A stretch of 64,000 nucleotides of DNA, from NCBI GenBank assembly GCA_000310025.1, contig FN649733.1, forward strand, positions 4,237,640 through 4,301,639. The letters run 5' to 3'. Made by a program: the position numbers and the translations under genes. The DNA comes from Ectocarpus siliculosus (Eukaryota; Sar; Phaeophyceae; Ectocarpales; Ectocarpaceae). Under the pieces are notes generated by a model. It ran no database searches, had not been told where the DNA came from, and saw nothing but the letters and a program-made list of their open reading frames with translations. This document shows, piece after piece, positions 1-61,000 of the stretch. How positions within the stretch are numbered: the first letter of the stretch is position 1; every line of letters starts with the position of its first letter.

Positions 1-148
1 GACTGGGCCTCAAGCGACACACGATGATACTGTGAACGCGTTAGCCAAACACCGACTGAGAAATCCCGATTTCCTCCTGATCCGCGGCGAGGAAAGAAAC
101 CAAATCTACTTGTTCCGCATGCTGGCTTCTTCGCAGCTCCGACCTCAC

Positions 149-14643: not shown

Positions 14644-15857
14644 ATGCCGACGGGGAATGATGATGCAGCCGGTGACACCCAGGGGACCAGAAACCACCTA
14701 GTCTTCTTCGTGAATGGAGCTAAGCAGGTGGTCAAAGATGCCCAGCCTCAGACAACACTGCTGCAACATCTCCGGGCGGCCGGCCTGACCGGGTGAGGCT
14801 GTGGCGCAAAAGAGTCGGTGTGCTTGCGGCGTGTAGAATCTGGACGCGACAAGAAGCTATAATAGCGACAAGTTGCAGTTTTGAGGGAGCCAGACGAGTG
14901 CGCAACGGTCATCGCAGTCGTATTCAGCTCGCTCTCTGATGCCCCTTTCGACGTGCGCCACTGCTTTGTGGGACGTACTACACGATCGTCCTGCCGTAAG
15001 CAGGACCAAGCTTGGATGTGGGGAGGGTGGGTGCGGGGCATGCACGGTGATGGTGTCTTCCTTCGACTCGGACAAGAAGCAGATCAAGCACGCCGCAGTC
15101 AATGCCTGCCTGGCGCCCGTGGTAGGTGCCTCTTCCTTTGCCTGCTGGAGACGTTCACGTGACAGCAGTAGTGTAGTGCTCTGTCTCTGTCTCTGTCTCT
15201 GTCTCTGTCTCTGTCTCTTGTCTCTTTCGCATTCCACACGTGAATATAATCTCTACTGCTGTATCCATATCTGATGCATATCATGATCCTGTTTTGTGTT
15301 CCCGGACGTGAGGGACCACTCACGACAAGCGGGGTGGTGGTATTTTTTAGAGATTGACATGTTCTCCTGGTTGTGCTGTTTTCCGGATGGCGTTGTCTGA
15401 AGTCGCGCATCGGGTGGTACATTCTCTCCCAATCCCTCCCTATAACGCGAGTGTGGTGAAATCTGTTTCGAGTTTTCGGGATCTTACGATCTTTAGTGAG
15501 GCCCCTTTTTTTTCGGTGTTTCATGACGTCATTTCCCTGAACATCTACGTCACGGAATCTCAGTTGGCTACCGCATATGACACAAGATAACACACCCGTT
15601 GACTGATTTTTTCAAAGCCCGATTTCTCCACAACGGGCGAAGAGGATGCATAAACGAAACTATTCGTTGTCGGAGAGCTCTCGTCAGACGGCTTCAACGC
15701 CGTTTTCGGCGCTGCCGTTGATACATCGAATTTTGAAAATCGGTCCTGGGGGTGTGTTATCTTGTGTCTTACCAAGATGGTAATCTTTGTTGTACATGGT
15801 TGTAGTTTTTTCTCTGCGCATTAAAGATCGTGCCGGAACCGTGCGGCAGAAGCAGCC

Positions 15858-15889
<32 letters not shown>

Positions 15890-18800
15890 TGATTCATGAG
15901 AGCTTCGTCCACACCACAAACACTTTCACTCGTCCCCGCGCTACTAAACAGTAGCAGTCCTGCGTACACGGCTGGTGGTGTTGGGTGAGGTGTGAGCGTG
16001 TGCAGTACCAGTGGTGACCTCTCTGTGAGGCTCCATCCATATCTATTTGCGCCTGCGTCTCTTTCTCTGCCTGTTCTTTTTCGCGCTTCGCACGAATTTG
16101 TTGGGCCTCTCTATGTATGGGCGTATGGAGTTGAGCCTAAAAATCGTTCCGATCTCTCTACTCGGTACCTCCTTCTGTCCGTAGTGGTACCACTTAACGC
16201 GGTCGATTCCCGTGGTGACAGGCTAACTTAAATCTAAAAATATGCTTCTTCGAATACTCAAAAACATAGTGGGCTCGAAGGATCCGCAAAACGATAAAAG
16301 TAATGGAGACAGAAAGTCTGGAGCGCTAGGTGAGGTGAAAATGAAACTGGTAGTCAACATCACGGGCCAGAGAGGTACATCCCCTGGTACAATCTTGGTG
16401 CCCCTTTGTAGTGCCGTCGAGGTGTTCCTTGGTCGGGTTCTCGCCGGTCAGGACGAAACGGCAAACACACGCCCCACTCGCTTTTTGCTCCCGCTCAAAA
16501 AAAGGGAGGGTCAGCAGTGTTGCATCGAAAATCGAAAATCGAAAATGCGGCTGATTGGACAACGGGACCTTGTTTCGCCGCCGGAACTTCGATATGGAGG
16601 AAGTGGGCAAATCTAAACGACAAACTGAATAGATCGAAATACAAGATCGAAAGCGTGAACAGGAACATCATGTTGCTTGCCAGCTGCTTGCCAGGCTCTC
16701 TGAATTCGGAAGCCTTCATTCCGCTACTCATCTAACCTATAGACCGCCTTGCGATGCACACTATGTGTTGGCATGTAAATTGACACCGAGAGATTAATCG
16801 ATATATCGATATACAATTGTTATTGTTTCTTCGCCAATGGCATCGTTGTCGGCTTTCCTGCATTAGACCGGAGTATTCAATTACGCAGACCAGTGCTCGC
16901 TGAGTTCGACCAAGCATTTCCAACCGCCAGATCCTGGCCGACATCCGGATCTATCGCTCGCTGTCTGCTGTGCCCTGTATCTCTCACGACTACTACTGTA
17001 CGGTGTGCATCATGCCAACGGACGCATTCAGGCCGTTTTTGTGTCATCCCTGTTGTTTGCCATTTTCGATTTGCAACAAGCCTAACATCTCCACCCGCCG
17101 CACGACTCCCCCGCCCTACACCGGAGCTGCAGACCAACTGAAGATCTACCAGGACAAGAGGCGCCCCAATCGCAACTGCCCGCGCTGCAACTGGCCCCGC
17201 AGTCGCAGCGCGGGCAGTTGCGATCGGCGCACTTCTTGTCCTGGTAGATCTTCAGTTGGTCTGCAGCTCCGGTGTAGGGCGGGCGAATCGTGCGGCGCGT
17301 GGAGATGTTTCGCTTGTTGCCATTTTGATACATGTCCATGAGCGTGTGAGTAGAGCCAATTCGAAATCTAAATCATTCGGTGTGGAGAAATCTAGTTTTT
17401 TCGGTTTGGAGTTCTCTGTATAGACTTCTACCCATCCCCGTCGACTGCTGTGGTTATCTGTCTTTGAATGCATGAGTATTTTCTCAAGAGGTCGGAGCGT
17501 GGTGTATGTCGTTTAGGGCATTGGTACCCGAAACGTCGCTGCTATTGGCGAAGTACCACGGGGCACCCATGGGTACAATTGCTTGTCCTGTTCCCAAGGG
17601 CGGTGTGCCCCCAAAGAAATACGGAAATCGTTGTTGAGTATTTGGAAATGGGAGAGGCTGTTGCGGGAGAAGTTTGTGCTCTTGGTAATTTGTTTCGTCT
17701 AGCGAAGGAGGCCCGTGACAGCAGTTAGTTCGTTGTGCCATTATTTCGTAAAATGCGAGTGCAGTGCTCTGTGGACTGGTGCCATGTGACCACGGTGGAG
17801 GGCGTGGGCACGATGCGTCAAGGGCTGCACCCGGTCCAGAAGCGGATCGCCGAGATGCACGGCAGCCAGTGTGGCTTCTGTACCCCAGGTGATTTGTTGT
17901 TGCTGCAGCTACAACACCGCTGTTTCCGTTCCTGTTGCTGCTGTTGTTTGGATATTCAAAAACGCTTTTTGTCTTTTACCCGGGCCTTGCACACTTCCTG
18001 TAAACCCAACCGCTCGAAGTAATCCATGGTGTCATCTCGGTACTACTATCTCGTCGACTTATCGGGGATGTCCTATCGTGAGTAGGGTTGTCTTATCATG
18101 ATGGCACACACGTGTCGGGAATATCGGCATCTCGATCACAGATGTTGTCGTCCCGTACACATACATAAGAGGCCGAACTGCAGGCTGCGATTGTGGTTTT
18201 GGTGTTCGAAGATTCCAATAACATAAATGCGAAGAACCACATTACGAAACACGCACGAAATATTTTTAACGCCGGTGTCAGTGTCATGATGCCCGGGCAT
18301 CAGCGTTGCACTGGGATCCACAGAGTCTCTCATGCCCATTTTTTGAATACATCTCCAGGGATCGTCATGGCGCTGTACGCCCTCCTTCGCTCCAACCCTT
18401 CGGCCACCCCTGCGGAGATCGAGGATGGATTGGACGGTAATCTCTGCCGTTGCACAGGTATAAAAACATTGAATGCCTAGTTAGGTAGATCATCTTTTGT
18501 GGTTTGCGATTGTCCGAGACGTGTACACTTTCTTTCCATCGCACTGGCGTTTCGGTCGGTATCCCCGGTTCGTCCTGCTGCTGTTTGTGACGGTTTCGAC
18601 GTTTTGCACAGCGGGTGCCCAGCAAAGTCTTGTCGCTGCACTGATGACGATTCGCGTGTGTTCATCAGGTGCAATGTAGGGTTTTGCAGATACGTGCCGT
18701 TGTTTTTAGCTTGACGGGCATTCGCTAAGATCAACGTGCTCCTCCTCGTCGTACGCCTCGGAATCCTCTATCAACCCCATTAGCGATTGATGCATTCCCA

Positions 18801-26300: not shown

Positions 26301-29300
26301 GGAAGAAATATTGAGTTCATGTTGGAGAAACGCTACATGAGAATATGTTGCTGCCGTTGCATCCTAATGTAATTCTCCAGGTGTACCTTGTGGGCAAGGA
26401 GTGGTCGGCGGAGACCATGGGTGGGGCGTACGAGCTGCTAGCGCAGGACATGCCCCTTTCCTCCAGCGTACCAGGTAGTACTTGACACGTTTCTGTTTTT
26501 CGCTGCGGGCGGCACCGATGCCTGGCAACTTCCTTTCGCTCAGCGCTGTGGTCACACGAGCATGAAAGCAGGTTCACGTGCTCATATCCAGTCGCGGGTT
26601 GGGTTTACTCTCGTGTTGTTGGTTTCACAAACTGTTTTGCACTCTGCAAGAAACAATAGACGATAGGTTTCGCGACGATTTCCGACCGATACTCTCAGAA
26701 AGGCAGCAAATTTTCGTTAGTCGGTTGGTGTTCTTGTCTACGATCAGGAGCTCCCCGTATCCCAAGGCTTTTGTGGCGGGGGGATGACTGCCCGTGCGTT
26801 AGTGTCCAATTTACCTGGTACGTTTTCTGGGCAAGGCAAGGGACTCCGCCAATGTGTCGATGGGTCAATACGTCCAGAATCGGCCCACTCTTTTGAAGAA
26901 AAAAAAATGTAAGGAAGAAACGGGCTTCTGGTTCCCGAAAATCTGAACTCGGGGTAAAGAAAGTCAGCCCCGCGGTGAATCCTACACTACACTCTATATC
27001 GCAGTCCATGCTCGATGATCGTCGCACAAAATGAAACCGATCTATAACCTCCACCCGGATTTGACGTCGCTAAGTACTATAGCGGGCCGGTACTGTACGA
27101 TACGCACGGGTGATTCTTTCTGCATGCTCACGATGCCAATCTGGATCTACTCGGTGTTTTCTTGGGGGTGGGGGGTGGTTTCTCGTAGTCATGGGGGCTG
27201 TGTTGGAGTCGCTGTTCTGTCGCATAGTGGTCTGTCTGTCAACGCGGTCTCTTTACCATCGAAGCTTGCCCCCCACTCCACTCCGGTTTCACATGTGGTC
27301 TTCAAGGTGGACAGTGCGAGTACCGACGGGCCTTACCGCCGTCCTTCCTGTTCAAGTTCTTCATCGAGGTGTCCCTTCGGCTTGAGGCATTATCGGTGGA
27401 ATCCGACGGACAGCTTCCCCCCCCGCCGGTCATTGGAGACGCCGATAGGTTAGAACTACTGGTATTCGTTACGTGTTCGGGAAGGTTGACCAATGCATAT
27501 CCAGGTTTGTCTTCGCCATGTGGCTTCAAATGTTTTGAGTACGCCTCAGGCCGGATCTTTTCTTTGTTTCTGCGTTTACGACGTGTGTCATCCCTTCAGG
27601 TCTGCGGCAACGAACTTCGTCACCGCGCCAAAGCCCCCGAGCAGGGGAGAGCAGGAGTACACACCTCGGGTACGTGGCACGCTGCACGCTTGTCATGCTT
27701 GGCATCCTCGTCGTTGTTGTTGGTCGATGCTGTCATCGGTTGGGACCACTGGTTAACTTGTTTCTGTACCGGCAGGCAAAGGGCAAGATTACCCCGAGAG
27801 CGAGCAATATTGGGCATTCGGGGAGAAGGCGCTTTCTTAGGGGTTTGTTTCTCGGTGACGTCACTAGGCGGCAACGTCTGACGCGCGAATCCACGCTCGT
27901 TGCAGGGCAGGGAGAGTGGGGTTGGTTGAAGCACGCCGAGACAATATTAAGTTTCCAGGACTATGACCGTCGGAGCCATGTACGGTAGATTTGTCGACTA
28001 CCTAATTCATTCGCTGTTGACGTTCGTAGGAGTCGTGTCCTTCTGGAGTTGGACTATTCCGCAGACGACAACACGAGCTACGTGATATGCTGAATTTGTT
28101 CCATGAGGCCATGGGACGTCATACATCCCATTTTTCCCTTGGGGAGTTGGAGGTACAAACCTGTGCTGCTCTTGCGTTTTTCATCCATCCTGTTGTTCCA
28201 TACATTAAATATAGGACTGCAATTCAGGATCGCTTGGGGGAGAGTCAAAATACGATGAACCAGAGTTGAGCCAACCCTACGATAGATTGAAACATAAGAT
28301 CGTCGAGTTTCGGCGTCCTCCACTTGTTATCCGTTGGTGGTCGTGTACAACACGGCCGACTAACAGAGGATGCCGTAAATGCATGTTTGTACAGTCGAGG
28401 CCCGCCCTCATTCACCTTCTACATTCGATTTCATGCAGACGGGAGGAATGCAGAAGGCACGCCCACAGCCTCACACACCTGTTGTCCGCGACGAAGAAGC
28501 CACGGGCAGGACCGAAAACACCAAAACGAAGAAGGCCGCACTGGAAGGGGGTGTTGGAGACCCCGTCCCACACAAATCAGCGGATCTTCAGGTGACGTCT
28601 GTCGTTGTTGTTTTGAGTAGTGACGACGGTGATGGTGGCATTGTGCTGGGTTGTCCCGCTATTAGGGTTTAAATGGCAGTGGACGTTGGGCGGGCGAACG
28701 CACTACACAGGCCGCTCTCCTCTCTAGGCTGGTACAGTATCTGCGGAAAGATGGCGATGCTCAAGTCTTGCCGAGAATACACAAGCGTCCTCTTACACCG
28801 CACGAACCATCCGGACTTGTGCGCATCGGTGTAACAATGAATCAGGTGACGGGAGAGGCTGTCTACACGGACGACATGCCGTCCCCCGTGGGCACCCTCT
28901 TCGTCGGCCTGGTTCTCTCCACGAAACCCCACGCCAAGCTACTGGAGGTAGACGCCTCCCCGGCCCTGGAGGTGGAAGGCGTTTTGCGGTTCGTGGGTGC
29001 CGGGGACGTTACCCCGGAGCGGAACGGCATCGGTGCCGTGGTGGTGGACGAAGAAGTGTTCGCTGTTGACGAGGTTTGTATTGCTGCACCACCTTTTTGT
29101 GTGTTCAGTGTCGCCCTTGCTTGTGTCAACAACGTACAAGTTTTCAACTGGAGTACCTATTTTTTGCATTCGGTGTTTTTCCATTTTTGCGTTCGTAACA
29201 TCCAGCAGTTTTTTCATGGTGCTGCTGTGCCTTTCTCTGTGTTCGTTGTCGCCGCTTCTTTTCTTTAATCGGCGCGAAGTGGGGGCATAACCATACATGA

Positions 29301-32300
29301 CCATTTTGTGGCCACAAGTGAGATTTGTCTGCAGAATGAATTCCAGACTGTGAGGACAAATGGGCGTCCGTCGCCGTTCTCTAGTTGAAACGCTGGTCCG
29401 AATTGTGTTTCACGTGTGATAATCACGGTTTGTCCTGTGTCGGCAGGTTCACTGCTTGGGGCAGGTGATCGGAGCCGTGTTAGCGGAGAGTGCTGCAATC
29501 GCGGAAAGTGCGGCGAAACTCGTGATGGTTCGGTACGAGGAGCTTCCGTCCATAATGACTATTGAGGATGCCATCGCCGCCGATAGGCAAGTACTCCGTC
29601 CGGTTTCCGGTACAGGGTGTGGTTTGCACTTTCTTGGTTTCAATGCTCGATTGAACCTGCACGCTGGACTGTTGGTGTGAAACTACTGTAATCGTTCCCC
29701 ACAGTGGCAGTATTTTCCTCTTTCAGCTATGTGGTGGTGGGTGTATTCGCGTTTAGTCCCACTCAATTTTTTTTTTTTCTTCACTTCAAATCAGCGCTCA
29801 CAGCACTAGTACCGTTTATTCCAACCCGTGGTCACACAGAAGAGCCTCTCTCTACCCTCCCCTCCTGCGGTACTTCGCCTTCAATTTTTAATGCGAGAAG
29901 AGTTCAGCACTCTTTTCCCTCTGTGTACGTGTACACACGAACTAGCGCTATCCACTAGGCCAGGAGCGGAAGCGAGAGAAAAACTCACTTTGCAAGAAAA
30001 GCTCTCTTACGCCGGGATTCGAACCCCTGACCTGACCTCTAGAAGGTTACGAGGCTACCAACTAGACCACCGGGGCGACCGGCTATACGAAGGGATGGAC
30101 CCAGGCGCCATTCCGATGGACAACCAGTTTAGTGGCTCTCCCGTAGCGTTTCGTTCCCCTCCCTCTTGCTGCATTTCTCCCTTGTATTGTGCCACGACTG
30201 TTCGTGGCATCAACGTTCCTCTATTGTGCACGGTTGCCCCGCTTGTACAGCTACTACGGCGATAGGCACGCCATTGTGGACGGTGACGTCGACAGCGCCT
30301 TGAAGGACGCCGATGTTGTTGTCGAAGGCGAGATGGCGGTAAGCTTTTGGAGTAGCTGTTGTGGCCGTTGGGGTAAGTCTTGTCCACGAAAGAAGGAGGC
30401 AAGTCTGATGTCTCATACGATAAGGCCGGGGTACAGACTGAAAAACGGTGAAAATGGGTCGTTGATTAGAGTCATTTTCATTTGATGAGTGCTTTCGCAT
30501 TTGATGAATACGGGGTTCGGGCCTTACAGTGGGTATGCAGCGGTCCTTTTGTCACATTTGGTGAAAATTGAAATTTGGTGCTTGGGTTTGCTTCACCGAC
30601 GGACAACGAACGTCGGCAAACGGACCGTCTTTTTCCGGTCCTGGAACGACAGGCTCCAGGAGGCGATGCTCAGGCGCAGTTGACGGTGACGCATGCACCG
30701 ATTGCGTTTTACAAGCTGCAACCCAGTCGGGGGGGAGGGGGGGGTACTCATAGTCGTGCATGCCGTAGTCGTTAGATCATTGACCTCGCATCCCTACGAA
30801 GCCGGGACGGAGCACGCCGGGTTCTCACCGGACCACACTCTCACATCACCAAGCGCGAAGCGCCGTGAGGTATTCGGCGAGTCGCATGAAGGGTGCGCTG
30901 CATCCTGCTAAGGGTGTTCGGCATCTTGTGCTTACTTCCTTGCGTACGAATGACACCTGCGTATGACTTAATTTATTTTCTGGTGCTTTCACTTCCACAG
31001 ACAGTTATAAGCACAGTGTAACTGCCTCGATGATGCTTTTACCATTTTTAGCACAACGTGGTGCGATCATCCCCCTTGCGCGGAGTGAGGATTCTCGACC
31101 CCGCACAACATAATCTACTCGACCACCATTATGGTTACCGCAAAAAAAAAAACAGAGGTAAAAAGAAACCCGGTAACCTGGTTGCCGAGTTCACGAAGTG
31201 AATTGGCTTGTTTTACAACGTCGTTGCCTCGCGACGAAAACCCAATCCCGATGGCAAACACCGGAGGGGGGCGGCTTGTTTCACAACATCGTTGCCAAGC
31301 GACGAAAACCCAACGCCGATGGCAAACACCGGGGGGGGGGGGCAAACACCGGGGGGCGGCGGCTTGTTTTTCAACGTCGTTACCAAGCGACGAAAACCCA
31401 ACCCCGATGGCAAACACCGGAGGGGGAAACCCAGTCGGGGCATTAATTGGCGTTATTCAACCGCTGCACCCCACGAACTGCAAGTTTCAAGTCTTTACCT
31501 CACGCAGACTTTTGTGTTTTTCATACCTGCTTTTGCTGCCATGCCTCCATCCCACACGATATTTTCAGATCGGTGGGCAAGAGCACTTCTACCTGGAGAC
31601 GAACGCCACCTTGGCGGTGCCCGGGGAGGCGGGGTCTTTGGAAGTCTTCGCGTCCACACAGAACCCCACCAAGACGCAGGATTTCTGCTCCAAAGTGTGT
31701 GGTATCGACAAGAACAAGGTGGGTGACGTCGACGGCGCGGGCCTCTGGGGGATGAGGGGAATGGGGCAATTGTGTCTGTTGTCATGTTTTTGGTTGTGGT
31801 TGTATCGTGGATGCTCGTTGTTTTGCTTACGGATGGTGTTGTGTGGTAGATCGGCCCTTCGCGTTGTTCTCCTTGTTGATGTCGTGAGATGGTTCTGCAC
31901 GACACGAGCCGTCGCCCTTGTTGGCGTCGTGCAACGGTTAACCTCACCCTAACCGCTACGAACAACGCCGCTTTCGAACCTCGTAGGTTGTCTGCCGGAC
32001 CAAGAGAATGGGGGGAGGGTTTGGCGGCAAGGAGACTCGTTCCGTGTTCCTGTCGTGTGTGGCTGCTCTCGGTGCTCACTTGACAAAACGGTACGTACGG
32101 TACCGAGGTGACTAACGCGGTTGGGGATTCCTTTCCCCAAAACTCTAGAAATATCCATGGGATCACGCGCGTGACATGGTATTCTGACCTCCGTTTGGTG
32201 GAGACCCAATGCACTTCTCTACCAAACCTGACGGGCTTGTTGGTGCGCTCGCATTGTTTGTGGGAGGTCAATTTGACCTCTGTTCTATCTTTGGTTTTCT

Positions 32301-38300: not shown

Positions 38301-40689
38301 GTGGGTACGATTTCGACATGGAGACCACCAACAACAGGGACAGAGGGCTCCCTTTCAACTACTTCACTCAGGTGGGGGAACGGACGGCAACGCCACGACA
38401 TGCCTCTACGGTTTCTCATTGATGTTTTCTATAAACCACTGCCGAATGAATCGAGCGTGTCTCCGACATCTACGCATCTCTGGCCACTTGGCACAATGGC
38501 CTCCATACTCTTTCTTCTGCCATAAGGCTTGCGAATGTTGGTGACACGCGCGCTGATCGCGGCGAGTTTCGCGTGCGCCTAACCACGGGAATCAGAGGGA
38601 ACATATTCTTGACAAATCGTTGTAGGGAACTCGTGGCGAATGTACCGGTAGCGAAACAAGTGTGCCCGTCCCTTCCGGCCGATTACGTCTTGCTATTGCT
38701 GTTCACAGGGTGAAATATGTAGGTTAGAACATGTTCCTCTGTGCAACTTTCTCAGCAACTGACGATGCTACCTCCACTGCTGCTTCCGTCGCTGATAAGG
38801 GTGTTGCGGCCAGCGAGGTGGAGATTGACTGTCTCACCGGAGACGCCAAAGTGATCAGGGCTGACATCCTCATGGACATCGGGACTAGCGTCAACCCGGC
38901 TATCGACATCGGTCAGATCGAGGGAGCTTTCATTCAGGTTGGCGTTCGTTGCATGTTCGATCTCGTTGCGCCTTGATCTACAGCAATGTTTTCGAACATC
39001 AAGATTCGCAATTGGCTCTATCCAACTCGATTTTCAAACTCTTCACGCACTTCATCGCATGGCACGCTACATTAGGGGGATGGTCGGGTAGATGAGACAG
39101 CCTTCTTCAATGAAAATGAATGGCGTTTTTGTTTCGAAATTGGGAAATCATACGACGAACGCCGTTGCGAGCAATGCACAGCAGTATTTGGTTTCTGTCA
39201 AGTGCCAAGCTCGCCCCAGTCTTGTGTTTTCCTCTCTTCTGTGGACTTGGGGAGTAGGGGCGGCTCTCGATCAGATGTTTTTCACTACCCTCCAGGTGTT
39301 CGTTCGTATATCGGTCATATCCGAGCGCACATCGCGCTCTTGTTCAAACGTGTTCCCAATGCTTTTCAGGGCTATGGCTGGTGTACGATGGAAGAAACAA
39401 GCTGGGGAGACTCGGAGCATCTCTGGGTAAAACCCGGGCAGCTCTTCACCAAGGGCCCTGGCACGTACAAAATCCCGTCTTTCAACGATGTGCCCTCGGA
39501 CATGAGGGTCAAGCTCATGGACAGGGCGAACGCCTTCGCAGTCCACTCCTCGAAGGTGATTAAGGCACTGCTGTACACTCGGTAATGTTTAGGTTGTTTG
39601 TCATAAGCGCGACACAACAGAGCACGAAGCCATAGGAGCTTCATCTTTGGTCTTGGTTGAGCGTGCTTCGTGCGGTGGCCGAAGCCTTTCCTCTTGCACG
39701 ATTCCCGCAAATGATGTCACGAGTAGTGTGTTCGAGATTTTCACTCCGGCCATTGGCGGCAAGACTTGGTCAATCTCTTCGTGTTGCGCCCTTCCGAGGC
39801 AGTCATGATGAATCGGGGCCTTCACATGTCGACGAGAAGGCATGTAGTGAGGCGTTCGCCTCACCTCATGATGATTTATACATAGAAGACACCGTGGTCC
39901 GCTTGAACATGATGACCGGCCCCGTAGTGTAGCTTCTGATACTAAATATTTGCAGGCTTCGTGTAAAGTGTGGTTTCCTCGTCGAGCGTAGAGGATGAAA
40001 AGCCCATGAGGGGACCACAACAGCAGTATGGTGACACAAATCCACAACGTTCAGGCTTTTCCATCTCTTTGCCCTTAGGCTGTGGGGGAGCCCCCGTTCT
40101 TCCTCGCATCCTCGGCGTTCTTGGCCATCAAGGATGCTGTGGCGTCAGCGAGAAAGGACCACAACAAAGGCAAAGCATCCTTTTTCCGACTCAACAGCCC
40201 AGCCTCTTCTGAAAGGTCGGTGGGACCCATTAGATTGTTTGGTGGAATGGTGTAAAGGTGTTTTGTGTTGATTGGCCATTGCATTTTTTGACGTTTTGGT
40301 CTTGGTTCGTCGCCCTGATGTGTAAGTTTGCAGTCAAAGTCCTACCGCGAAGGTAAGCATGCTGCTCTGCTGTCTCTTGCAGCCCAGCACATGACCACGA
40401 TGTGGGCCTGTCGATAGCGTACGCAGTATTTCGATTGTGTCTCCGTTACAACTGTTTCAGTTGCACGTGATTGTCTTTCTTGTGAGTGGGGAATTTTCCA
40501 GGTTTCTTACGCTGGGTTAGCAATATTGCTGTTTTCCACTACATACAATACCTCGCCTCCTTGCGATCGTCTTCCTTTGTTAGGATCCGCACGGCTTGCC
40601 TCGATGGCATCATGGAGCGCTCCGCTGCCGCAGAAGACGGCGAAGGTCCTGCCCACATTAGTGACTACCAGGCGAAGGGCTCGTGGTAA
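14644..40689 (+). CDS. XDH: xanthine dehydrogenase, copy 1 (complete, 33 exons)
   Basis: XDH oxidises hypoxanthine to xanthine and xanthine to urate, normally passing electrons to NAD+. Thirty-three exons join into 4515 nt (1504 residues plus TAA) with no frame break. Animal XDH is about 1330 residues; most of the extra length is the acidic linker of exon 6 and the Lys/Glu-rich segment of exon 15. Module order is canonical: plant-type 2Fe-2S, helical 2Fe-2S, FAD, molybdopterin. Conserved features include [16 protein letters not shown]...[49 protein letters not shown] and VGEPP. By motif position these carry the residues equivalent to bovine Glu802, Arg880, Phe914, Gln1040 and Glu1261, so the enzyme should be functional. 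Introns 17 and 28 begin with GC. The ATG at 14644 was chosen because it is the first in the exon encoding HLVFFVNG and is matched in copy 2. The C-terminus AKGSW is not a peroxisomal SKL signal. Exon coordinates are in the domain entries. Confidence 0.96.
15179..15218. repeat. (CTCTGT)n microsatellite
   Basis: About six near-perfect hexamer units in intron 2 of XDH copy 1; not present in copy 2. Confidence 0.9.
15580..15767. mobile_element. 188-bp TIR element (MITE) in XDH copy 1 intron 2
   Basis: A perfect 18-bp terminal inverted repeat, ACACAAGATAACACACCC at 15580-15597, is mirrored at 15750-15767. It has no coding capacity. Related elements lie at 13336-13503 and 44474-44562. The equivalent position of copy 2 intron 2 lacks it. 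Confidence 0.8.
15858..15889. repeat. (CAG)n microsatellite
   Basis: About ten CAG units inside intron 2 of XDH copy 1. It is intronic, so it does not encode a glutamine tract. Confidence 0.9.
17073..17320. repeat. large near-perfect palindrome (foldback) in XDH copy 1 intron 2
   Basis: The left arm (17073 to about 17193) and right arm (about 17201-17320) are inverted copies of roughly 118 bp with only a few mismatches and a loop of about 7 bp (GCCCCGC). In transcript form this would be a very long hairpin. Each arm read outward contains an open stretch reading [14 protein letters not shown] followed by a CPRC pair, which looks like a captured coding fragment of unknown origin. It sits in DNA (about 16863-17412) absent from copy 2. 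Confidence 0.88.
20574..20857 (+). other. XDH: XDH copy 1 exon 6: acidic linker between Fe-S and FAD modules
   Basis: This exon codes about 94 residues, starting phase 0 and ending phase 2. It is rich in Asp, Glu, Ser and Thr (for example [20 protein letters not shown]), then Gly-rich and basic. It is inserted where animal XDH has a shorter linker. The reading frame and exact length (284 nt) are kept in copy 2 (52601-52884), which supports it as real coding sequence. It is probably disordered; no function is known to me. Confidence 0.82.
21234..21347. repeat. 57-bp direct tandem duplication at the exon 7 acceptor
   Basis: Two adjacent 57-bp units (21234-21290 and 21291-21347) are essentially identical and each ends in the splice-acceptor sequence GCTTCCAG (the AG overlaps the next unit or exon). 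Copy 2 has a single unit ending at 53333. The duplication therefore creates an extra potential 3' splice site 57 nt upstream of the one used. Confidence 0.92.
23276..23330. repeat. (CTG)n microsatellite in XDH copy 1 intron 9
   Basis: About 16 uninterrupted CTG units, followed by an interrupted CAGCAG. The same site in copy 2 (near 55238) has only two to three units. It is intronic and lies within otherwise highly similar flanks. Confidence 0.93.
23800..25101 (+). mobile_element. 1.3-kb insertion with (CAA)n tail and 8-bp target duplication, XDH copy 1 intron 10
   Basis: The insertion is bounded by direct repeats CATGAAGC at 23792-23799 and 25102-25109. The corresponding place in copy 2 (near 55703-55712) runs straight through without it. 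The right end is a run of ACA/CAA units (about 25083-25101). A simple-repeat tail plus a target-site duplication fits a non-LTR retroposon, probably truncated. No reverse-transcriptase motif was recognised in it. Confidence 0.8.
27600..28591 (+). other. XDH: XDH copy 1: linker exons 14-15
   Basis: Exon 14 (27600-27669) encodes [20 protein letters not shown]. Exon 15 (28439-28591) encodes a Lys/Glu/Thr-rich stretch that ends [13 protein letters not shown], which matches the VGRPLPH segment leading into the molybdopterin domain. The 5' limit of exon 15 is the least certain boundary of the gene: an alternative in-frame acceptor lies about 30 nt downstream. Confidence 0.78.
29768..30084 (-). mobile_element. 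tRNA-derived SINE in XDH copy 1 intron 17
   Basis: On the minus strand the element starts with a tRNA-like head (near 30080-30010) that has A-box-like TGGTCTAGTTGGTAGCC and B-box GGTTCGAATCC sequences. It ends in a poly-A (poly-T on the plus strand, 29768-29778). Copy 2 intron 17 has the empty site: ACTCAAT joins directly to ACGAAGGG near 60821. Related copies lie at 43889-44211 and 45807-45992. Confidence 0.88.
30733..31440. mobile_element. 708-bp insertion with 13-bp direct-repeat flanks, XDH copy 1 intron 18
   Basis: AACCCAGTCGGGG occurs at 30720-30732 and again at 31428-31440, and the DNA between is missing from copy 2 intron 18 (near 61455-61490). This accounts for the length difference of the two introns (1230 versus 521 bp). 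The right third is a minisatellite. No protein or terminal inverted repeat was recognised, so the element class is open. Confidence 0.72.
31207..31432. repeat. minisatellite, three units of about 66-88 bp
   Basis: Three consecutive units share the core CGACGAAAACCCAA..CCGATGGCAAACACCGG followed by a G-run and GGCTTGTTT. The middle unit contains an additional partial repeat (GGCAAACACCGGGG). It is confined to the copy 1-specific insertion. Confidence 0.9.
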
Positions 40690-43600
40690 AAGGTGTTGCT
40701 TTCTCTTTCCTCAGGATGCTGCTCCTCTGCCTATTTCACTCTGTACGGAGAGGCTTGATTCACTACATATGAGCTGACGGTGATGCTTCAGACATCGAAT
40801 GGGGACTCGTGTTCACGTTGAGTTGTTTAGGTGTTGAAAATGTCGGCTACATGGTATGAACATTGGGCAAGCCTTGTTAAAATATAGCGCAGTATGCTAT
40901 GGATACTAGTTGCTGCTTTCCGTTGCTGTATGCAATGATGAATGGTTTGGTACTGTGTGTTTGTTCGTATTTCGTATGCGGAAAGTTTTATCCGCTCAAG
41001 TCAACAATCACAGGAGGAATATTGTAAGAAAGTTTTGAGTTCATGGACCGGTTCTCCGGAACATTCCCAGGAACAGCCTATTGTCTTTTAGGTAGAACGG
41101 TTCATGAAACGACTCCAGGACCGTTATGATCGTGGTTACTAAGAACGGTATTTGAGTTACGTAAGAACGGTATTCGGGTTCCGGAACGTTGCCGGACCGA
41201 TCGTTGAGTTCTTTGGGTGTGTGTCTGTCGGTAGGTACCGACGGATATATTTTGGACAGGATTAGGACGCGCTCGCCTACCGAGTTAACCCCCAACTTTC
41301 CCCCCTTTCCAAACAACCTCAACAAGTGCGTTGTAGTCCGAGCAAGGCTCACGATAAATAGTAAAACAAGTTAAAACATCATCAAAGGTCTTCACATACA
41401 CGGGTTTAATCACCAGTTGCTCCACCTCTGCACGACGAGAGTGGAGCCTGTTGTGTCAGCAGCATTGCTTCCGCCTGCTGCTGTTTTCCCGCACGCACAC
41501 AAGCAAAGTTGACACAAGCCACAACATACCGAGCCAACATCACCATCAACCATCACACATATTCTTGATTGTAATGAAACCTGTCGTTCACTGCTGTTTT
41601 GTGTGCCGTGGAAAAGCCACGCCCGTCCACGGGAGATACTCAAATCCAGGAAATCAAGATTTCGAAACGTTCCTCTAACACCCACGACGAGGAGCCATGT
41701 TGCGGCTCGAAACTAGGATCGAAGATTGAGAGGGCTCACTACATGTACTCCCCCGGCCCCGCCTGACAACGCAAACCTAGCGGCAGGTTATGGGTTCGAT
41801 TCGCTCTCCGGAGCTTTTTTTGCCGGGATGTATTTCCAGCAACCTCCCGTTGAAAGCGATCTACATAGGTCGCGAGTAAAACAACTTGGGCTTCACGGTC
41901 GACAAAGGAAAGGGGTGGCTGAGCCCTTATCGCGATAAGAACTAAGTCAAGCACCGCAGGGTACGTCCTTGCTGAGTGATTTGGGGCAAAACCGACAACA
42001 TCGAACACACGGCACTCCAAAACCAGTCCGCTCGGCGGTGACACGGTAGCACCGAGTTTCGCGCAAGGACAATTTGAACGCAATGAAAGAGCCAGGGGTA
42101 GGTCGGCCATCGCCTGTAATAGCGGATGTTGAACAGAGCACCGGCACGGGAGACCAACAACCAACCCATGAACCATCCACGGTGCCCCGATGAACAGAAA
42201 CATCGAAATGATGAGAACAGCCTTTTACGACCAGCAAGCAAAATGAAGGGAATAGTCGTGACAGAACTGCCCAATAGCGCCACGCGTGGTGCTGGCGCGT
42301 TATGTCTCAGCCGATGTGTAAAGCACGACCAGGAAAATGGACGAACGCCAGCACAGAAACGAAAACCAAGAGACAGAAAAACAAATGCGCACAGCGAAAC
42401 AAGAGCACAAAATGAATCCGGAACAACAGTGTCCACACCTGCGGAGTACGTATGGCTACGATCGTGACAAGGCCACGTATGCTCCGAGGCGGTCGTAGTG
42501 CCGGCTCTTCGTGATTCGTCCACGTTCTGTTGTGGTGGTCCTCGAGTGAGCGCCGTCATGAGACACCAGGTCTTGAACAGTGGTGTAGTGTGCGGGAGGG
42601 AAAAGAAGCTCGATGAGCATCGAGGAAGCAGACGTAGGTGTCCACGTCGTTAGGCTCGCTATCGGGAGATCTTCCCATGTAGCATCTCTGGCCTTTATCA
42701 TCAATGTGCACCCATGAGGAGTGTTTCTCCGTGGAATTTGCGAAAGCATTCATGGATATCCGGAATGGCGGACTTGTTCATCAGTATTCTACAATATTCC
42801 ACGCTCACATTCGGTACGTTCGGCACAACCCGCGGCAGCCAATATGGACAGAAACGGCATCGCGTGAAAGCGCGTGTGACAAGGGGACCCTGGCAGGCAA
42901 CAGGTTGCACCCTGCATTTGCCACGGCCGATTCTAGGCCTACAACCAAGGCACCAGCATGAAATCCTGATTGTCCGGTTCTGCGTCACGCGTAACTGGAA
43001 CAAGTTGAAAAGGGCTTGGTGAGAACTTATTCAACGGTCATTTTCTGGGTATCTACGTTGCTGAGCCCAGCACAATCGCCCGTACCCGTGCCGATTGTTT
43101 CCGAAAAGTGGGGGTGAAGCAAGATACCACGTACACTGGGATAGGGAACCCACGTGAGGCATGGTACGGTTTTAGTATCCACTAGCGTCTGACCCCCCGA
43201 AGGCGTGTCAGTGCGAAGGCATTGGGGCGCCCACCATTTCCCTAAGGCGCGAAAACCAGCAACCCAGGCGCGCACCAGAACGAGACCAATTGCATCTGCA
43301 CTCCGTAAAGCACCCAGATATCTCATCACCAAAACGATTTGTCCCAAACAAACGTATTCTTGAACCGGCGTCCTTCGCCAAAAACAGTTCTGAGGCACCT
43401 ATCGCTTGCACCTTACTACTTTTTCCATAAAAAAAATACTGCAACCGCGACTATCTGGTACAAATAGCAGCAAAGACGCCCGCATTACTCTTCGTGTCCT
43501 TCCATACATTCTGGACGCCGACGTACATTCTGGCGCCGTTCTTGTGATCATCTCGCCCGTCAGCATCCTCCGAATTGCGGCTTGACCATAGTAGCGTGGA

Positions 43601-43888
43601 TCGCTGCGATAACATTCGGCATACCGCAAGAGCAGGGGGGGGGCGCGCTTTCAGTGGGACTATGTGACTGCTGCTCCCGTACTCAGGACAGGGTTTCCAC
43701 ACGTCGAGGAACAACAAGTACATGGAGGGCCATGTAGCTCAACGCCGAAAGTCACTTTGAGGGTTGTGAAGGAAACGGACATACATTTGAATATTTCAGC
43801 TGGTGCCTCACCTAATGGCATCCCTAGGCAGCCGTGACGATCCTTGATATCCACCGCAAGCATTGACGAGTATTCTGCTGCAAAGACG
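40690..43888. other. intergenic region 3' of XDH copy 1
   Basis: No supported gene was found. Minus-strand open stretches include one of 205 codons at 41942-42559 with hydrophobic runs, and shorter ones at 42556-42753 and 43399-43863. None shows a recognised domain or a convincing set of splice sites. The first few hundred bases should contain the XDH copy 1 3' untranslated region. Confidence 0.5.
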
Positions 43889-44211
43889 TTTTTTTTTTTT
43901 TTTTGTCTTCACTTCAAATCAGCGCTCACAGCACTAGTGCCGTTTACTCCAACCCGTGGTCACACAGAAGAGCCCCTCTCTACCTTCCCCTCCTGCGGTA
44001 CTTTGCCTTCGATTTTTAATGCGAGAAGAGTTCAGCACTCTCTTCCCTCTGTGTACACACGAACTAGCGCTATCCACTAGGCCAGAAGCGTAAGCGAGAG
44101 AAAATCTTACTTTACAAGCAAGTTTCGCTTACGCCGGGATTCGAACCCCTGACCTGACCTCTAGAAGGTTTCGAGGATACCAAGTAGTCTAGACCACCGG
44201 GGCGACCGGCT
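43889..44211 (-). mobile_element. tRNA-derived SINE, full length, with target-site duplication
   Basis: Same family and orientation as 29768-30084, with the poly-T end at 43889-43904 and the tRNA-like head near 44135-44205. It is flanked by the direct repeat AAGACG at 43883-43888 and 44212-44217, a typical retroposition footprint. Confidence 0.88.
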
Positions 44212-44473
44212 AAGACGATAATGTACATTAAATCAAGGCCCGTCCGCAAACTATCACATGATCGCAGATTACGTTTTGCGGCCGTCTTCTTAGTTGCACG
44301 CAAACCCTTGAAGCCCCACAACAACGGAACAGTTGCACGCGATGAAACCCTGTGGGAATAATAGAGTTGTTACTTCAGTCGTACAGCTAGCAGTGGCTGA
44401 GGAGGTCAACCATCATATTTCTTCTGCAAGCGTTGAGCGTCGTGCTAAAAACCCCATTTGCATATTCGGAAAA

Positions 44474-44562
44474 GCACAAGATAACACGCCCCGGTGATAC
44501 GATTGTGGAGTTCAAACGTATCACCGGGTGTATGTTGCCGGAAGAGGTGTGCTATCTTGTGT
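44474..44562. mobile_element. short TIR element related to the 15580 MITE
   Basis: The outer inverted repeat (CACAAGATAACAC near 44475, mirrored with one mismatch near 44562) resembles the ends of the elements at 13336 and 15580. An inner perfect inverted repeat, CCGGTGATACG / CGTATCACCGG (44491-44501 and 44517-44527), adds a hairpin. Confidence 0.6.
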
Positions 44563-45806
44563 CACCCGTGTGATATATTTTTCAAACTGACCATATGGAT
44601 GTGCTACAATCTCGATCGCCTCACTTTTGGTATTCAACAGCGTCGCTCACAACACACAAGCAGCGGACTGTGATATTTTTTTTTCTCGCGGTTGGGACAT
44701 TCTTGGTGTCAAACCGTGAAGAGGTCAAGATTCCAGGTGAATGTTCGCAAGAGGCAGAGTCTTCACCTGAATTGCGATGCCGAGGGCACCCTGCGTCCAA
44801 TCGTTGCGATCAAGGTGCCCTCGCTTGGCTGTTCTAGCAGTTGACCCTCTAGACGCTGCAGGCGATCGAGGTGGTGGACCGTAGTCATGTATGCATGTAC
44901 AACATGGTCTACTGCTGTAGTCTACGTGCTTTCCCGCGAGCGCTGGAGATCCGGAACTATCGACTGCCGTCGGTGCAGAGGAGTGACGCGCTGGGTTCAA
45001 GTATCGGCAGCTGGTGTTGGTAGTGCGTCCAGCACGGAGCTCGGGGACCTGCGATAAGGCAAGGCTCCCTTTCTGGGGAATTTTTTCGCGCACAGCGGAA
45101 CACAAAAAATGTGGGGAGGCGTGCTTTATCAACCCCGTGGAGAAAATGAAGACAAGACGAGGGAATGATGTTCACTCGTCGCGATGATGCCCGTTTTCCG
45201 TAGGGTTTTTTGTGTTACACTCCCGGATGTGTTTGGCCGTGGTTGCGTTGAGTTCATTAAAAGCAGAAAAATGAAACGATGATTTCGCTGAAACAACAAC
45301 GCTGGCGTGGGGCACTATTATAGAAGGCAACTTTCACCCTCCGCATTTTTTTTTTCCCTTGCAAAACAATTGCCAAGATTGTCAGCCATTGGTCGAGAGA
45401 CTACAGTCCCTCTGAAGAATCTGAGCTCCTTGCCAGACAAAGGGTGACTTGTCTTCAGTAAAAAAGTACAGTAGGTGTCCCAAAAAGGTTCTCAAAGCAC
45501 GTGGGACACTTTTGATCCCTAAAAGGACAGGTCAGCAAATAATGTTTCAAGTACCACGCGACAATGCGCGATGGCAGCCGCAGCAGTTTTACGACCTAGG
45601 GGGCACGCGGGTTGGGAGATGTGTAAGCAACTATCACACAGCCTACAGCAGTACCACCTCTCACTCAGCCAAACAAGATAGACCAAGGGTTCTCACGCGG
45701 GTTGCACATAGCGGAGCCTAGGTGACTACAGCTGTATAGTAAGTGTATGGGCATGATGCAAGATTTACAGCAGTAGTACGTACCTGGCTGTTCTGGACCG
45801 AACACA
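44563..45806. other. intergenic region upstream of XDH copy 2
   Basis: No gene is supported. The promoter of XDH copy 2 must lie here or within the adjoining SINE remnant. The sequence is not similar to the upstream region of copy 1. Confidence 0.5.
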
Positions 45807-45992
45807 TTTTTTTTTTTTCACTTCAATCAGTGCTCACAGCATCATTTGTGCCGTTTGCTCTCCCCAAGGCCCGCCGACCCGCCCCTACCCACCCCTCCTG
45901 TCGTGCTTTATTGCCTTCGACTTTTAATGCGAGAAGATTTCAGCACTCTCTTCCCTCTGCTGTGTACACACGAATTACTGTAGTAGCGCTTT
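45807..45992 (-). mobile_element. truncated SINE abutting the start of XDH copy 2
   Basis: Poly-T at 45807-45817 is followed by the SINE body (TGCTCACAGCA..., AATGCGAGAAGA, GTACACACGAA) up to TAGCGCTTTCC, where the similarity stops before the tRNA-like head. XDH homology begins in the same few bases (TTTCC, about 17 bp before the ATG at 46003), so the break in the SINE coincides with the left edge of the duplicated DNA. Confidence 0.82.
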
Positions 45993-46002
45993 CCGCCCGA
46001 CC

Positions 46003-49000
46003 ATGCCGACGGAGAATGATTATGGAGCCGATGACAGCCAGAAGGGGACATGTAGGGATCACCTAGTCTTCTTCGTGAATGGGGCAAAGCAGGTGGTCAA
46101 AGATGCCCAGCCTCAGACAACATTGCTGCAACATCTCCGGGCGGTCGGCCTGACCGGGTGAGGCTGCAGCGCGAAGTAAGTGTCGGTGTACCGTTGTGAA
46201 GAATCTCGACGCGACAGTTAGTTGCAGTTTTGAGGAGGCCAGACATGAGAGGCGCAACGGCCATCGCATGTCGTCTTTCAGCTAGCCCTGTGATGTCCCT
46301 TCGACGTGCCACGCTGCACGATCATTCTGCCGCAAGCAGGACCAAGCTTGGATGTGGGGAGGGTGGATGCGGGGCATGCACCGTGATGGTGTCTTCCTTC
46401 GACTCGGAAAAGAAGCAGATCACGCACGCCGCAGTGAACGCCTGCCTGGCGCCCATGGTGGGTGCCTTTGCCTGCCGGAAACGTTCACGCTACAGAGTAT
46501 TGTGCCCTCTCTCTCCTTCAAATTGCGAATGGTACATGAAGACTGCAGCAGCACCGCGCAGCATCTACGGCACCAAATATGTATTGCGTGCTCTTGCCCG
46601 CGGACATATTTTTGCGTGCTCCTGCCCGGTAATCAATCGTCTTGTGTTTTGCTCTGTTTCTGTGATGCGATGGTTGGTGCTGCATGGCAGTGTATGTTTC
46701 CCTGCGTGCAGAGGCGAGAATACCTCCGACTACTGCACCTAGGTACATGTACTGTAGAGGGATGGAACAACAAACGAAGGGATAAAGGTGCTCCAGCTTG
46801 ACCTAAATAGTATATATTTGTACCCGTGTGAGGGCACGAACCCTTCCGACAAGCATGCGGGTGGTATATATGTTTGAGATGGATATATATATATATATAT
46901 GCTCTTGTCCTGGTTGCGTTGTTTTCCGGAGGCTTTATCTGAAGTAGTGCACCGGTTGGTACACTCGCTCTCCATCCCTCCCTACAACGCGCGTGTGGTA
47001 AACCCCGTTTCGAGTTTTCGGGATCTTATTTATTTTTATTTATTTTCTATGCGTGAACCCTGTCTTTTTTTTTGTCTGTATCTTGACGTAAGTTCCTTGA
47101 ACATCCACGTCCCGGAATTTGAGTTGACTATTGGTATTTTTTATTTATTTCGTAATATGACCCAACGAATCCATCTCTCTCTATCTTGAGGCCTACTTTA
47201 GTAGTTGTTGTTGTTGTTTTGGTTGGTGTTGTCTTGACAGTAAAAAGTGTTCTGCTCTCTCTGCCCAGTAGTACCTCCTTCAGTCCTTACTGGCTACCAC
47301 TTGACCACTTGATACGGTCGATTCCCGTGGTCACAGGCTAACTTATCCTGAAAAGATATACATCTACTCTATTTAATCAGTATTGAAGATTGGTCCGGAA
47401 ATAACGTCGATACCAATTTTTCTTCGATATTCGGAAAAAGGCTCGATAAGGCTGTTTTGGGGGTTGTTTTCTGTTTTCGGAGCAAGCAGGAGAGTAAAAA
47501 AAGATACCTCCCCACAACAGGCGGGTTTCTGTGATGAATCTTCTGCATTTATTTCCGTTCAGTCAAGTGTTGTCGACCTCTCCTGGGACAGGAAAAATGG
47601 GCACCCCGGGCGAAATTGATAACCGAACCTCCTTGTTTTTGATGTGTCGGGGGCCCCCAATGGGCCAGTATCGAGGGTATCGAATACCGATATCTCGATA
47701 CCGAAACTGATTCGTATCGAGAATATCGGCGTGGAAACCGGCGATACCGATACCGCGTATCGCTGACTATTTTCGAAATTGAATCGAAACTTGATACCCA
47801 ATCTCCAACCCTGTATTGTATTTAGTGGACTCGAAGGATCCGCAAAAAGATGAAGCAACAAAAGAGAGGCAGATCATCTGGAGCCCTCCGCTCCCCTCTA
47901 CGTGCTATAGTGAGGTGAAAATATGACTGGGAGTCAACATCACGGGCGTCCCCTGGTTCGACCATGCTTGGTGCCCGTTCGTATGCAGAGTGCCGTGGAG
48001 GTGTTCCGTGTTGGGTTCTCGCCGGTCAGGCCGGATCTGAAAACACACGATCCAGGCGGTCTTTCTCCCACTAAAAACAAGGTTGGGTCTTGTTGCCGCT
48101 GTGTTCCACCCAAAATCGAAAATCGAAAGTGCCACCCTGATTGGACATTGTTGCGCCGCCAAAAGGTCATCGATGCAAGCATGACAAACTCAATAACGAT
48201 ACAAGTGTTAATCGAAATCGAAAATCGAAAGCGTAACGGAAACATCAAAGTTGCTTGCCGGCTGCTTGCAGACTCGCTGACAGTCAGAGATGCCTTCATT
48301 TCGCTACTCATCTGCTCCTGCTGAAGCCACCTACAGACCGCTTTGCGATGCAAACTATGTACCATATACATTTCGTTGGCAAAAAGCTGGCACCCAGCCG
48401 AGCACAGCATACTTTCGTTGAGCGAGATCTGCTTTAAATTGACAGAGAGAATCATCGACGACGTGAAAAGGTGTCTTTGGCAACGGCATCATTTTCGGCT
48501 TTCCTGCATCTCTCTCTGAAAAGATTTCTACCCATCCCCTTCGACTGCTCTGGTTGCACAGTAATGCCATACTGGTACTTTTTTATGAACGTTTGCAAAT
48601 GTGATGACGTCATGAAAATCGAATGGGTAGCCCCTCCTTGATTGTATGCGTATATACATTTTCTAAACGAGTCGAGAGCGTGGTGTATGTCGTTTAGGGA
48701 CTTGCTACCTGAAACATCGCTGCTGTTGGCGACTGACCACGCGTATAAATGGGTAAGATTGCCTTTGCTGTTCCGAAAGGCGATGTGCTCGCAAAAAAAT
48801 GCGGAAAAGGATGTTGAATATTATGAAGGCGAGAGGGTGTCCCGGGAGTATTTGTGCTGTTGTTGGTATCTTGTTGAGAATCGAACGAAGGAGGTGGTGA
48901 CAGCTAATTTCCGTCGTGTCATTGTTTCGTAATATGCGAGTGCAGTGCTCTGTGGACTGGTGCCATGTGACGACAGTGGAGGGCGTGGGCACGATGCGTC

Positions 49001-58000: not shown

Positions 58001-61000
58001 TCTGGTTCCCGAAAAATATGAACTTGGGGTTAAGAAACACAACTCCGCGGTGGATCTTACACTGCACCCTATATTGCAGTCTATTCTAGGTGATCATCAC
58101 ACGGAATGAAACCGACCTAGCCTCCACCCGGATTTGACGTCGCTAAGGACTATAGCGGGCCGGTACTGTGCTATACGCATGGGCGATTCTGTCTGCGTGC
58201 TCACGATACCGATCTGGATCTACTCGGTATCTTCTTGGGGTGTTGTATTCTCGTAGTCATGGGGGCTGTGTTGGAGTCGCTGTTCTGTCGCATAGTGGTC
58301 TGTCTGTCAACGCGGTCTCTTTACCATCGAAGCTTGCCCCCCACTCCACTCCGGTTTCACATGTGGTCTTCAAGGTGGACAGTGCGAGTACCGACGGGCC
58401 TTACCGCCGTCCTTCCTGTTCAAGTTCTTCATCGAGGTGTCCCTTCGGCTTGAGGCATTATCGGTGGAATCCGACGGACAGCTTCCCCCCCCGCCGGTCA
58501 TTGGAGACGCCGATAGGTTAGAACTACTGGTATTCGTTACGTGTTCGGGAAGGTTGACCAATGCATATCCAGGTTTGTCTTCGCCATGTGGCTTCAAATG
58601 TTTTGAGTACGCCTCAGGCCGGATCTTTTCTTTGTTTCTGCGTTTACGACGTGTGTCATCCCTTCAGGTCTGCGGCAACGAACTTCGTCACCGCGCCAAA
58701 GCCCCTGAGCAGGGGAGAGCAGGAGTACACACCTCGGGTACGTGGCACGCTGCACGCTTGTCATGCTTGGCATCCTTGTCGTTGTTGTTGGTCGATGCTG
58801 TCATCGGTTGGGACCACTGGTAACTTGTTTCTGTACCGGCAGGCAAAGGGCAAGATTACCCCGAGAGCGAGCAATATTGGGCATTCGGGGAGAAGGCGCT
58901 TTCTTAGGGGTTTGTTTCTCGGTGACGTCACTCGGCGGCAACGTCTGACGCGCGAATCCACGCTCGTTGCAGGGCAGGGAGAGTGGGGTTGGTTGAAGCA
59001 CGCCGAGACAATATTAAGTTCCAGGACTATGACCGTTGGAGCCATGTACGGTAGATTTGTCGACTACCTAATTCATTCGCTGTTGACGTTCGTAGGAGTC
59101 GTGTCCTTCTGGAGTGGACTATTCCGCAGACGACAACACGAGCTACCTGATATGCTAAATTTGTTCCATGAGGCCATGGGACGTCATACATCCCGTTTTT
59201 CTCTTGGGGAGGTGAAGATACAAACCTGTGCTGCTCTTGCGTTTTTCATCCATCCTGTAGTTCCATATATGAAATATAGGACTGCAATTCAGTATCGCTT
59301 GGGGGAGAGTTAAAATAAGATGAACCAGAGTTGAGCCGACCCTACAATAGACTAAAACATTCCCCAAACAAATCGATGGTCGAGTTTCTGCGTCCTCCAG
59401 GTGTTATGCAGTAGTGGTCGTGAACACGGCCGACTAACAGAGGATGCCGTAAATGCATGTTTGTACAGTCGAGGCCCGCCCTCATTCACCTTCTACATTC
59501 GATTTCATGCAGACGGGAGGAATGCAGAAGGCACGCCCACAGCCTCACACACCTGTTGTTCGCGACGAAGAAGCCACGGGCAGGACCGAAAACACCAAAA
59601 CGAAGAAGGCCGCGCTGGAAGGGGGTGTTGGAGACCCCGTCCCACACAAATCAGCGGATCTTCAGGTGACGTCTGTCGTTGTTTTGAGTAGTGACGACGG
59701 TGATGGTGGCATTGTGGTGGGTTGTCCCGCTATTCAGGTTTCAGTGGCAGTGGACGTTAGGCGGGAGAACGCACTGCACAGACCTCTCCTCTGTCTGCTC
59801 GTACAGTATCTGCGGAAGACGCGGACAGACGGCGATGCTCAAGTCTCGCCGAGAATACACAAGCGTCCTCCTACACCGTACGAACCATCCAGACTTGTGC
59901 GCATCGATTTAATACTGAATCAGGTGACGGGAGAGGCTATTTTCACGGACGACATGCCGTCCCCCGTGGGCACCCTCTTCGTCGGCCTGGTTCTCTCCAC
60001 GAAACCCCACGCCAAGCTACTGGAGGTCGACGCCTCCCCGGCCCTGGAGGTGGAAGGCGTTTTGCGGTTCGTGGGTGCCGGGGACGTTACCCCGGAGCGG
60101 AACGGTATCGGTGCTATTGTGGTGGACGAAGAAGTGTTCGCTGTGGACGAGGTGTGGTACAGAAAATTTCGTGTTAGGTTGTTGTCCCTGCTATATCGTT
60201 TCTTTTGATGACCTATTTTGTGTTTGCTTTGGCGCGGTTTCTTTTCTTGTGGAGGGTTTGGTACGTACCGCGATGTGTACTACTGTAACCGTTTGAAGCC
60301 ACCATTGAATTTTCACTGCAGAATTAATTCTAGACAGTTTGAGAACAAATGGATCTGGGCCGCAGTTCTCCATTTTGAAAGACTGGTCCGAATTGTGTTA
60401 CACGTGTGATAATCAAAGTGCTTCCGTCACAGTGGCGGGAACCCCTTGCCGCAGATGGTTGATGTTGATTCCTCTTTGGTTTGTTCTGTGTCGGCAGGTT
60501 CACTGCGTGGGGCAGGTGATCGGAGCCGTGCTAGCGGAGAGTGCTGCAATCGCAGAGAGTGCGGCGAAGCTCGTGACGGTTCGATACGAGGAGCTTCCGT
60601 CCATAATGACTATTGAGGATGCAATCGCCGCCGAAAGGCACGTACTCCGTTCGATTTCTGGTACTGGGTATGGTTTGCACTTTTGGTTTCAATGCTCGAT
60701 TGAAACTGCACGCTGGAATGTTGGTTTGAAAATACACTGCAATCGTTCCCTACAGTGGCAAGCAGCCTTTTCTTCTTTCTGCTATGTGGTGGTGGGTGTA
60801 TTTGCGTTTGGTCCCCACTCAATACGAAGGGATGAACCCAGGTGCCATCCCAATGGACAACCAGTTTAGTGGATCTCCCGTAGCGCTTCGTTCCCCCCCC
60901 TCTTGCCGCGTTTCTCCCTTGTTTTTTGTGCCGCGCGACTGGTTCGTGGCATCAACGTTCCTCTCTTGTGCACGGTTGCCCGGCTTGTACAGCTACTACG

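Follow-up and report, generated by a model that had tools for sequence, protein, structure and literature searches.

Duplicated XDH genes of Ectocarpus siliculosus with a truncated SINE and unrelated DNA in front of the second copy

Duplications that alter the 5′ flanks of genes are familiar, as are mobile elements at breakpoints. The XDH gene pair of E. siliculosus described here, with its probable promoter replacement, is a clear case of this known type of event and is ordinary as an event; among the papers listed by literature searches, none was on this pair as judged by title or start of abstract. The closest systems come from two reports, each considered here in part. Tandem duplications in Drosophila yakuba recruit new upstream or untranscribed sequence (PMC5460883). 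The XDH pair is like these duplications, as far as that part of the report describes them, in that the duplication alters the neighbor of the gene's 5′ end, but the pair is old, both of its copies are conserved, and it is known here from sequence alone. The second report, on Ectocarpus itself, describes in the portion considered non-autonomous LINE-dependent elements and LINEs that are frequently 5′ truncated, as well as RTEX-N1_Ec32, an element of ∼600 bp for which no 5′ origin could be established (PMC12477816). The repeat family found at the XDH junction resembles the elements in that portion of the report (short, dispersed, non-autonomous and of high copy number), but differs from RTEX-N1_Ec32 in its length of ∼300 bp and its tRNA-like head.

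The duplicated block and its genes

The window, which is the whole stretch of 64,000 nucleotides analyzed here, corresponds to positions 4237640–4301639 of contig C8 in an assembly of 189 Mb and 492 contigs. When the window was compared by BLAST with itself and with 30 kb of downstream DNA, a duplicated block in direct orientation emerged (Table 1). The right edge of homology coincides in both copies with the edge of a dispersed repeat of ∼186 bp, at ∼41953–41961 in copy 1. Downstream of the block, further BLAST matches occur only at 80.8–81.0 kb, and these are to short stretches of the copy-1 block and not to the spacer between the copies. Near the right end of the block in copy 1, a stretch of ∼700 bp (40874–41570) has copies on other contigs with 79–86% identity and is missing from the homologous place of copy 2.

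Table 1. Coordinates of features at the XDH locus (window numbering).
Feature	Position	Strand	Remarks
Upstream region of copy 1	13000–14630		Second copy not found, save the dispersed repeat at 13334–13516
Duplicated block, copy 1	14631–41953	+	Counterpart 45990–69786
XDH copy 1, first coding exon	14644–14793	+	Codon alignment; PDB phmmer
Near-identical, conversion-like tract	27180–28640	+	Noncoding K2P 0.028; compared with 58248–59711
Full-length young SINE in copy-1 intron	29768–30085	−	Absent in copy 2, empty site near 60822
Dispersed ∼186-bp repeat, end of copy-to-copy homology	41776–41961		Counterpart end 69786
Spacer between XDH copies	41962–45989		Not found behind copy 2; second copy in the assembly not found, save dispersed repeats
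Second full-length SINE, in spacer	43896–44212	−	BLAST, consensus comparison
Dispersed ∼350-bp repeat in new upstream region of copy 2	45379–45731		Genome-wide search
5′-truncated SINE fragment, poly-T (tail) left, tRNA-like head missing	45807–45989	−	K2P 0.155 to consensus, 151 sites
13-bp overlap zone with TTTCC	45990–46002		10/13 identical to copy 1 14631–14643; alignable to older SINE copy
XDH copy 2, first coding exon, ends ...LTG	46003–46158	+	Codon alignment to copy 1 14644–14793; identity via copy-1 PDB phmmer

The exons match mammalian XDH chains, starting at the N-terminal 2Fe-2S domain and reaching almost to the C terminus (PDB phmmer with copy-1 frames, stops as X), and the 2Fe-2S, FAD and molybdopterin domains follow one another in XDH order in the copy-1 frames, to which the exon cores of copy 2 were aligned. 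The likeness to the mammalian chains holds exon by exon, and the protein parts compared show nothing unusual. MoCoBD_1 matches are present in both copies. Across the assembly, PF02738 gave 10 matches from the 12 candidates scored, every one of them in the two XDH copies of the window.

All 23 exon cores of copy 1 were recovered in copy 2. They are free of stops except in core e23, which opens in both copies with a stop triplet that is read as the acceptor AG of the preceding intron. Over 1,075 codons, within exon-core boundaries set by us and with the less conserved exons left out, the copies differ by a dS of 0.116 and a dN of 0.030 (ratio 0.26), and purifying selection thus holds for the pair jointly, not for each copy singly. 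Since the 23 exon cores are kept in both copies at this ratio, copy 2 is probably expressed from the DNA that now precedes it. The start codons lie at 14644 and 46003. Upstream of the latter, the frame stays open for 25 codons with no other in-frame ATG, which suggests that there is no ATG-started amino-terminal extension; an out-of-frame ATG is found at 45927.

The noncoding divergence between the copies (K2P 0.135, known exons left out) is uneven. It amounts to 0.185 in the 5′ part (14631–18160), 0.126 and 0.167 in two long middle parts, 0.071 at 38704–40871 and 0.187 at 41584–41775. The near-identical tract listed in Table 1, introns included, contains an identical run of up to 458 aligned bases (gaps ignored), while the other parts range from 0.07 to 0.19. 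This unevenness suggests gene conversion, likely a recent one in the case of the near-identical tract, and the 5′ part is therefore the better clock.

The original prediction named an FKBP gene as the left neighbor of copy 1, which could not be confirmed. Neither Pfam searches of 1–14.6 kb (six frames, in pieces) nor PDB phmmer searches of the three minus frames gave an FKBP match, and none of the 18 genome-wide matches to PF00254 lies on C8, although this absence is weak evidence because genes here match exon by exon. The same DNA contains a sub-threshold match to Mim2 (Pfam, E 0.014) and a short minus-strand ORF (12301–12594), which we take to resemble a plastid-lumen presequence. Farther left, C2-domain coding stretches are found on the minus strand of 1–5000 (PF00168, E 1.6e-9 in one frame).

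The junction at the start codon of copy 2

In the window self-BLAST, homology at the 5′ end of the genes begins with an alignment of 14631–15187 to 45990–46515 (79.7% identity). Upstream of the ATG, identity between the copies falls from 10/13 to 13/20, 15/30 and 53/200 as the compared stretch is lengthened. The junction just before the ATG is thus real, with homology extending over 13 bp and not the 17 bp first proposed. On its other side, the SINE fragment matches the element at 29770–29944 over 45807–45977 (74.6%, E 8e-25), and alignment with other copies carries it on through TAGCGCTTTCC to ∼45994, past the point where XDH homology starts. The SINE body therefore abuts copy 2, as had been predicted.

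The junction reads TAGCGCTTTCCGCCCGACCATG, where copy 1 has TTTTCCACGCGACAATG; the consensus of the SINE family at this point is TAGCGCTATCCACTTGGCC, and L053, a more diverged copy, has TAGCGCTTTCCACCCAGGCCAGG. TTTCC occurs in both copy 1 and L053, and the 8 bases that follow it fit SINE and XDH about equally. Since neither the L053 SINE nor XDH is clearly the better match to the full 13 bp, the edge is not sharp, and the breakpoint is to be placed within 45990–46003. The TTTCC microhomology proposed earlier is hence present in both parents and compatible with the join, but it is part of a wider 13 bp that are ambiguous between the two. End-joining with a short microhomology (TTTCC, possibly TTTCCAC) may have made the join. 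Position 45990 is the present edge of homology; it is not established as the original duplication breakpoint.

The DNA in front of the two copies is unrelated under strict scoring, in agreement with the original prediction, homology further left having been sought both locally and genome-wide without being found. The 200 bp to the left of each block align with a score of 11.0 (null mean 12.2; 225 of 300 shuffles scored as high), and the 1.8 kb left of copy 2 align with the 2.0 kb left of copy 1 with a score of 13.0 under strict scoring (null mean 13.8; 163/200). The same strict scoring gave 105 for one poorly conserved XDH intron stretch used as a positive control, for which 50 shuffles reached 18 at most. 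Lenient gap scoring of the upstream regions yielded 40.5, a value reached in 2/60 shuffles, from an alignment with 258 gaps in 909 columns that was not recovered under strict scoring. Genome-wide searches with 44220–45806, 41900–43895 and 13000–14660, which score the best candidates only so that weak copies may escape, returned only the queries themselves and scattered repeats on other contigs. The dispersed repeat at 13334–13516, upstream of copy 1, hits identical places on either strand, as a MITE-like foldback would.

The SINE fragment and its family

Complete copies of the SINE are ∼300 bp long, and those in minus orientation have poly-T at the left and the tRNA-like head at the right. With poly-T at its left and the tRNA-like head absent, the junction fragment is a minus-oriented, 5′-truncated member of this dispersed SINE-like family, which bears out the truncated SINE of the original prediction. 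A SINE pattern has 735 matches in the genome at ≤1 mismatch. The copies are dispersed and have the A-rich tail of a tRNA-derived SINE, seen as a T-rich run to the left of minus-oriented copies, and the minus strand of the consensus contains GGTTCGAATCCC, which resembles a B box. In the window, ARAGORN found no tRNA gene and Rfam gave nothing at gathering score.

Truncation is common in the family. Of 40 copies drawn, nearly in the order of the list, from the 100 listed of the 735 pattern matches, 8 stop short of consensus position 270, three of them at 171–179. The TTTCC at the junction ends at consensus position 168, so truncation at this point does not by itself indicate a duplication breakpoint. 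Target-site duplications are short at most: in the 27 of 36 copies that could be scored (9 were dropped because end motifs were not found), the mean longest match was 3.6 bp against 3.2 in controls, and matches of at least 6 bp occurred in 3/27 against 1%. The integration of the SINE in the copy-1 intron left almost no target-site duplication, as judged from the empty site kept in copy 2.

With 21 differences over the sites compared (Table 1), the junction fragment is more diverged from the consensus than the SINEs in the copy-1 intron (K2P 0.012) and the spacer (0.031), and exceeds all 22 other copies compared (0.012–0.126), a non-random set of these 2 from the window and 20 picked for similarity to the fragment. 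The consensus was built from younger copies, and part of the 0.155 may be a subfamily difference. This value is larger than half of the XDH-copy divergence in the 5′ noncoding part (0.185/2), in keeping with a SINE that was in place before the copies arose. The fragment is thus probably at least as old as the duplication and seems to have preceded the join. The SINE in the copy-1 intron most likely postdates the duplication, given that copy 2 has a clean empty site in its place.

Origin of the junction and its consequences for copy 2

After a one-step tandem duplication, copy 2 would be preceded by the end of the duplicated unit, and the same end would be expected to close copy 2 as well. Here, no such repetition of the unit end was found. 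A search of the 24 kb that follow copy 2 (a stretch that includes 100 N) did not recover the 4-kb spacer (41954–45989), and its comparison with DNA left of copy 1 or behind copy 2 gave nothing beyond two short matches (E 0.18). A simple tandem join is therefore insufficient, and an extra event is needed, either a deletion that took place later behind copy 2 or the insertion of DNA between the two copies. Pfam searches found no promoter-donor gene in six frames of 41000–45989 at E 0.01, and no gene just behind copy 2 in six frames of 4.2 kb (L001 5787–10000). Insertion of copy 2 into a SINE was considered and rejected: the SINE head sought behind copy 2 scored 15.5 (null mean 15.0; 89/200 shuffles as high).

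The account that we favor, with moderate confidence, combines an old tandem XDH duplication with a rearrangement that joined copy 2 to an old SINE and unrelated DNA. The ancestral XDH gene would have been duplicated in tandem long ago, and the rearrangement would have fused copy 2, no more than 13 bp upstream of its ATG, to an old SINE that was already there in minus orientation, with unrelated DNA behind it. The proximal upstream region of copy 1 would thereby have gone missing from the front of copy 2.

A less likely course of events is that the duplicated unit first carried the copy-1 promoter but lost it to a subsequent deletion, by which the SINE became fused to the 5′ UTR; 45990 would then be a deletion breakpoint and not the duplication breakpoint. 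An extra rearrangement is required anyway, given that the spacer is not found behind copy 2, and unaligned stretches of ∼0.3–1.3 kb are frequent between the XDH copies in the window self-BLAST; against this, searches of the spacer revealed no trace of the DNA upstream of copy 1. It is more doubtful that the 5′ UTR of copy 2 received an already 5′-truncated SINE once the duplication had taken place, with the true duplication breakpoint to the left of the SINE. The frequent truncation in the family, including the three copies that end close to the junction end, would suit such an insertion, but the fragment is old and the DNA to its left is unlike the upstream region of copy 1 under strict scoring. 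The fragment also has no clear target-site duplication, only a 4-bp match at chance level (control mean 3.2, in somewhat smaller windows), a weak point in view of the short target-site duplications of the family.

The outer left flank of a tandem duplication is normally ancestral. This makes it improbable that copy 2 retains the ancestral upstream region and that the one in front of copy 1 was replaced, as does the presence of several dispersed repeats in the flank of copy 2, although that of copy 1 has one too. An assembly error at the junction is very improbable, since despite gaps elsewhere in the assembly (e.g. 100 N at 83861–83960, window numbering), the window and nearly 20 kb of the DNA that follows it are free of N, and copies with the noncoding divergence given above are unlikely to be alleles.

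Under the favored account of duplication and rearrangement, transcripts of copy 2 that pass through the ATG at 46003 would have their initiation or an upstream exon in the non-homologous SINE and spacer DNA, because homology to copy 1 ends at most 13 bp before this ATG; the exception would be a start within these 13 bp. The claim that copy 2 has a new promoter and is regulated differently holds for the DNA, which differs up to the start codon, while the difference in regulation is one that we infer: if copy 2 is expressed, its regulation likely differs from that of copy 1. Ten of the 257 AGs in the spacer, counting those at 45983 and 45986, have a pyrimidine stretch that equals or surpasses the one at these two positions, which is suggestive of SINE exonization. 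On a speculative and rather unlikely extension, the pyrimidine stretch of the SINE together with ACTGTAG (the AG ending at 45983 or 45986) would serve as a 3′ splice site 16–19 nt before the ATG, linking copy 2 to a promoter and a first exon that lie within the spacer; conversion would keep parts of the genes alike, and one enzyme would come under two unrelated controls.

If copy 2 is expressed, the pair would constitute a natural experiment in which two unrelated upstream regions stand in front of genes for nearly the same conserved enzyme (as judged by dN over the compared codons). The boundary is placed within 13 bp of the start codon, and the effects of the promoter would then be separable from those of the protein.
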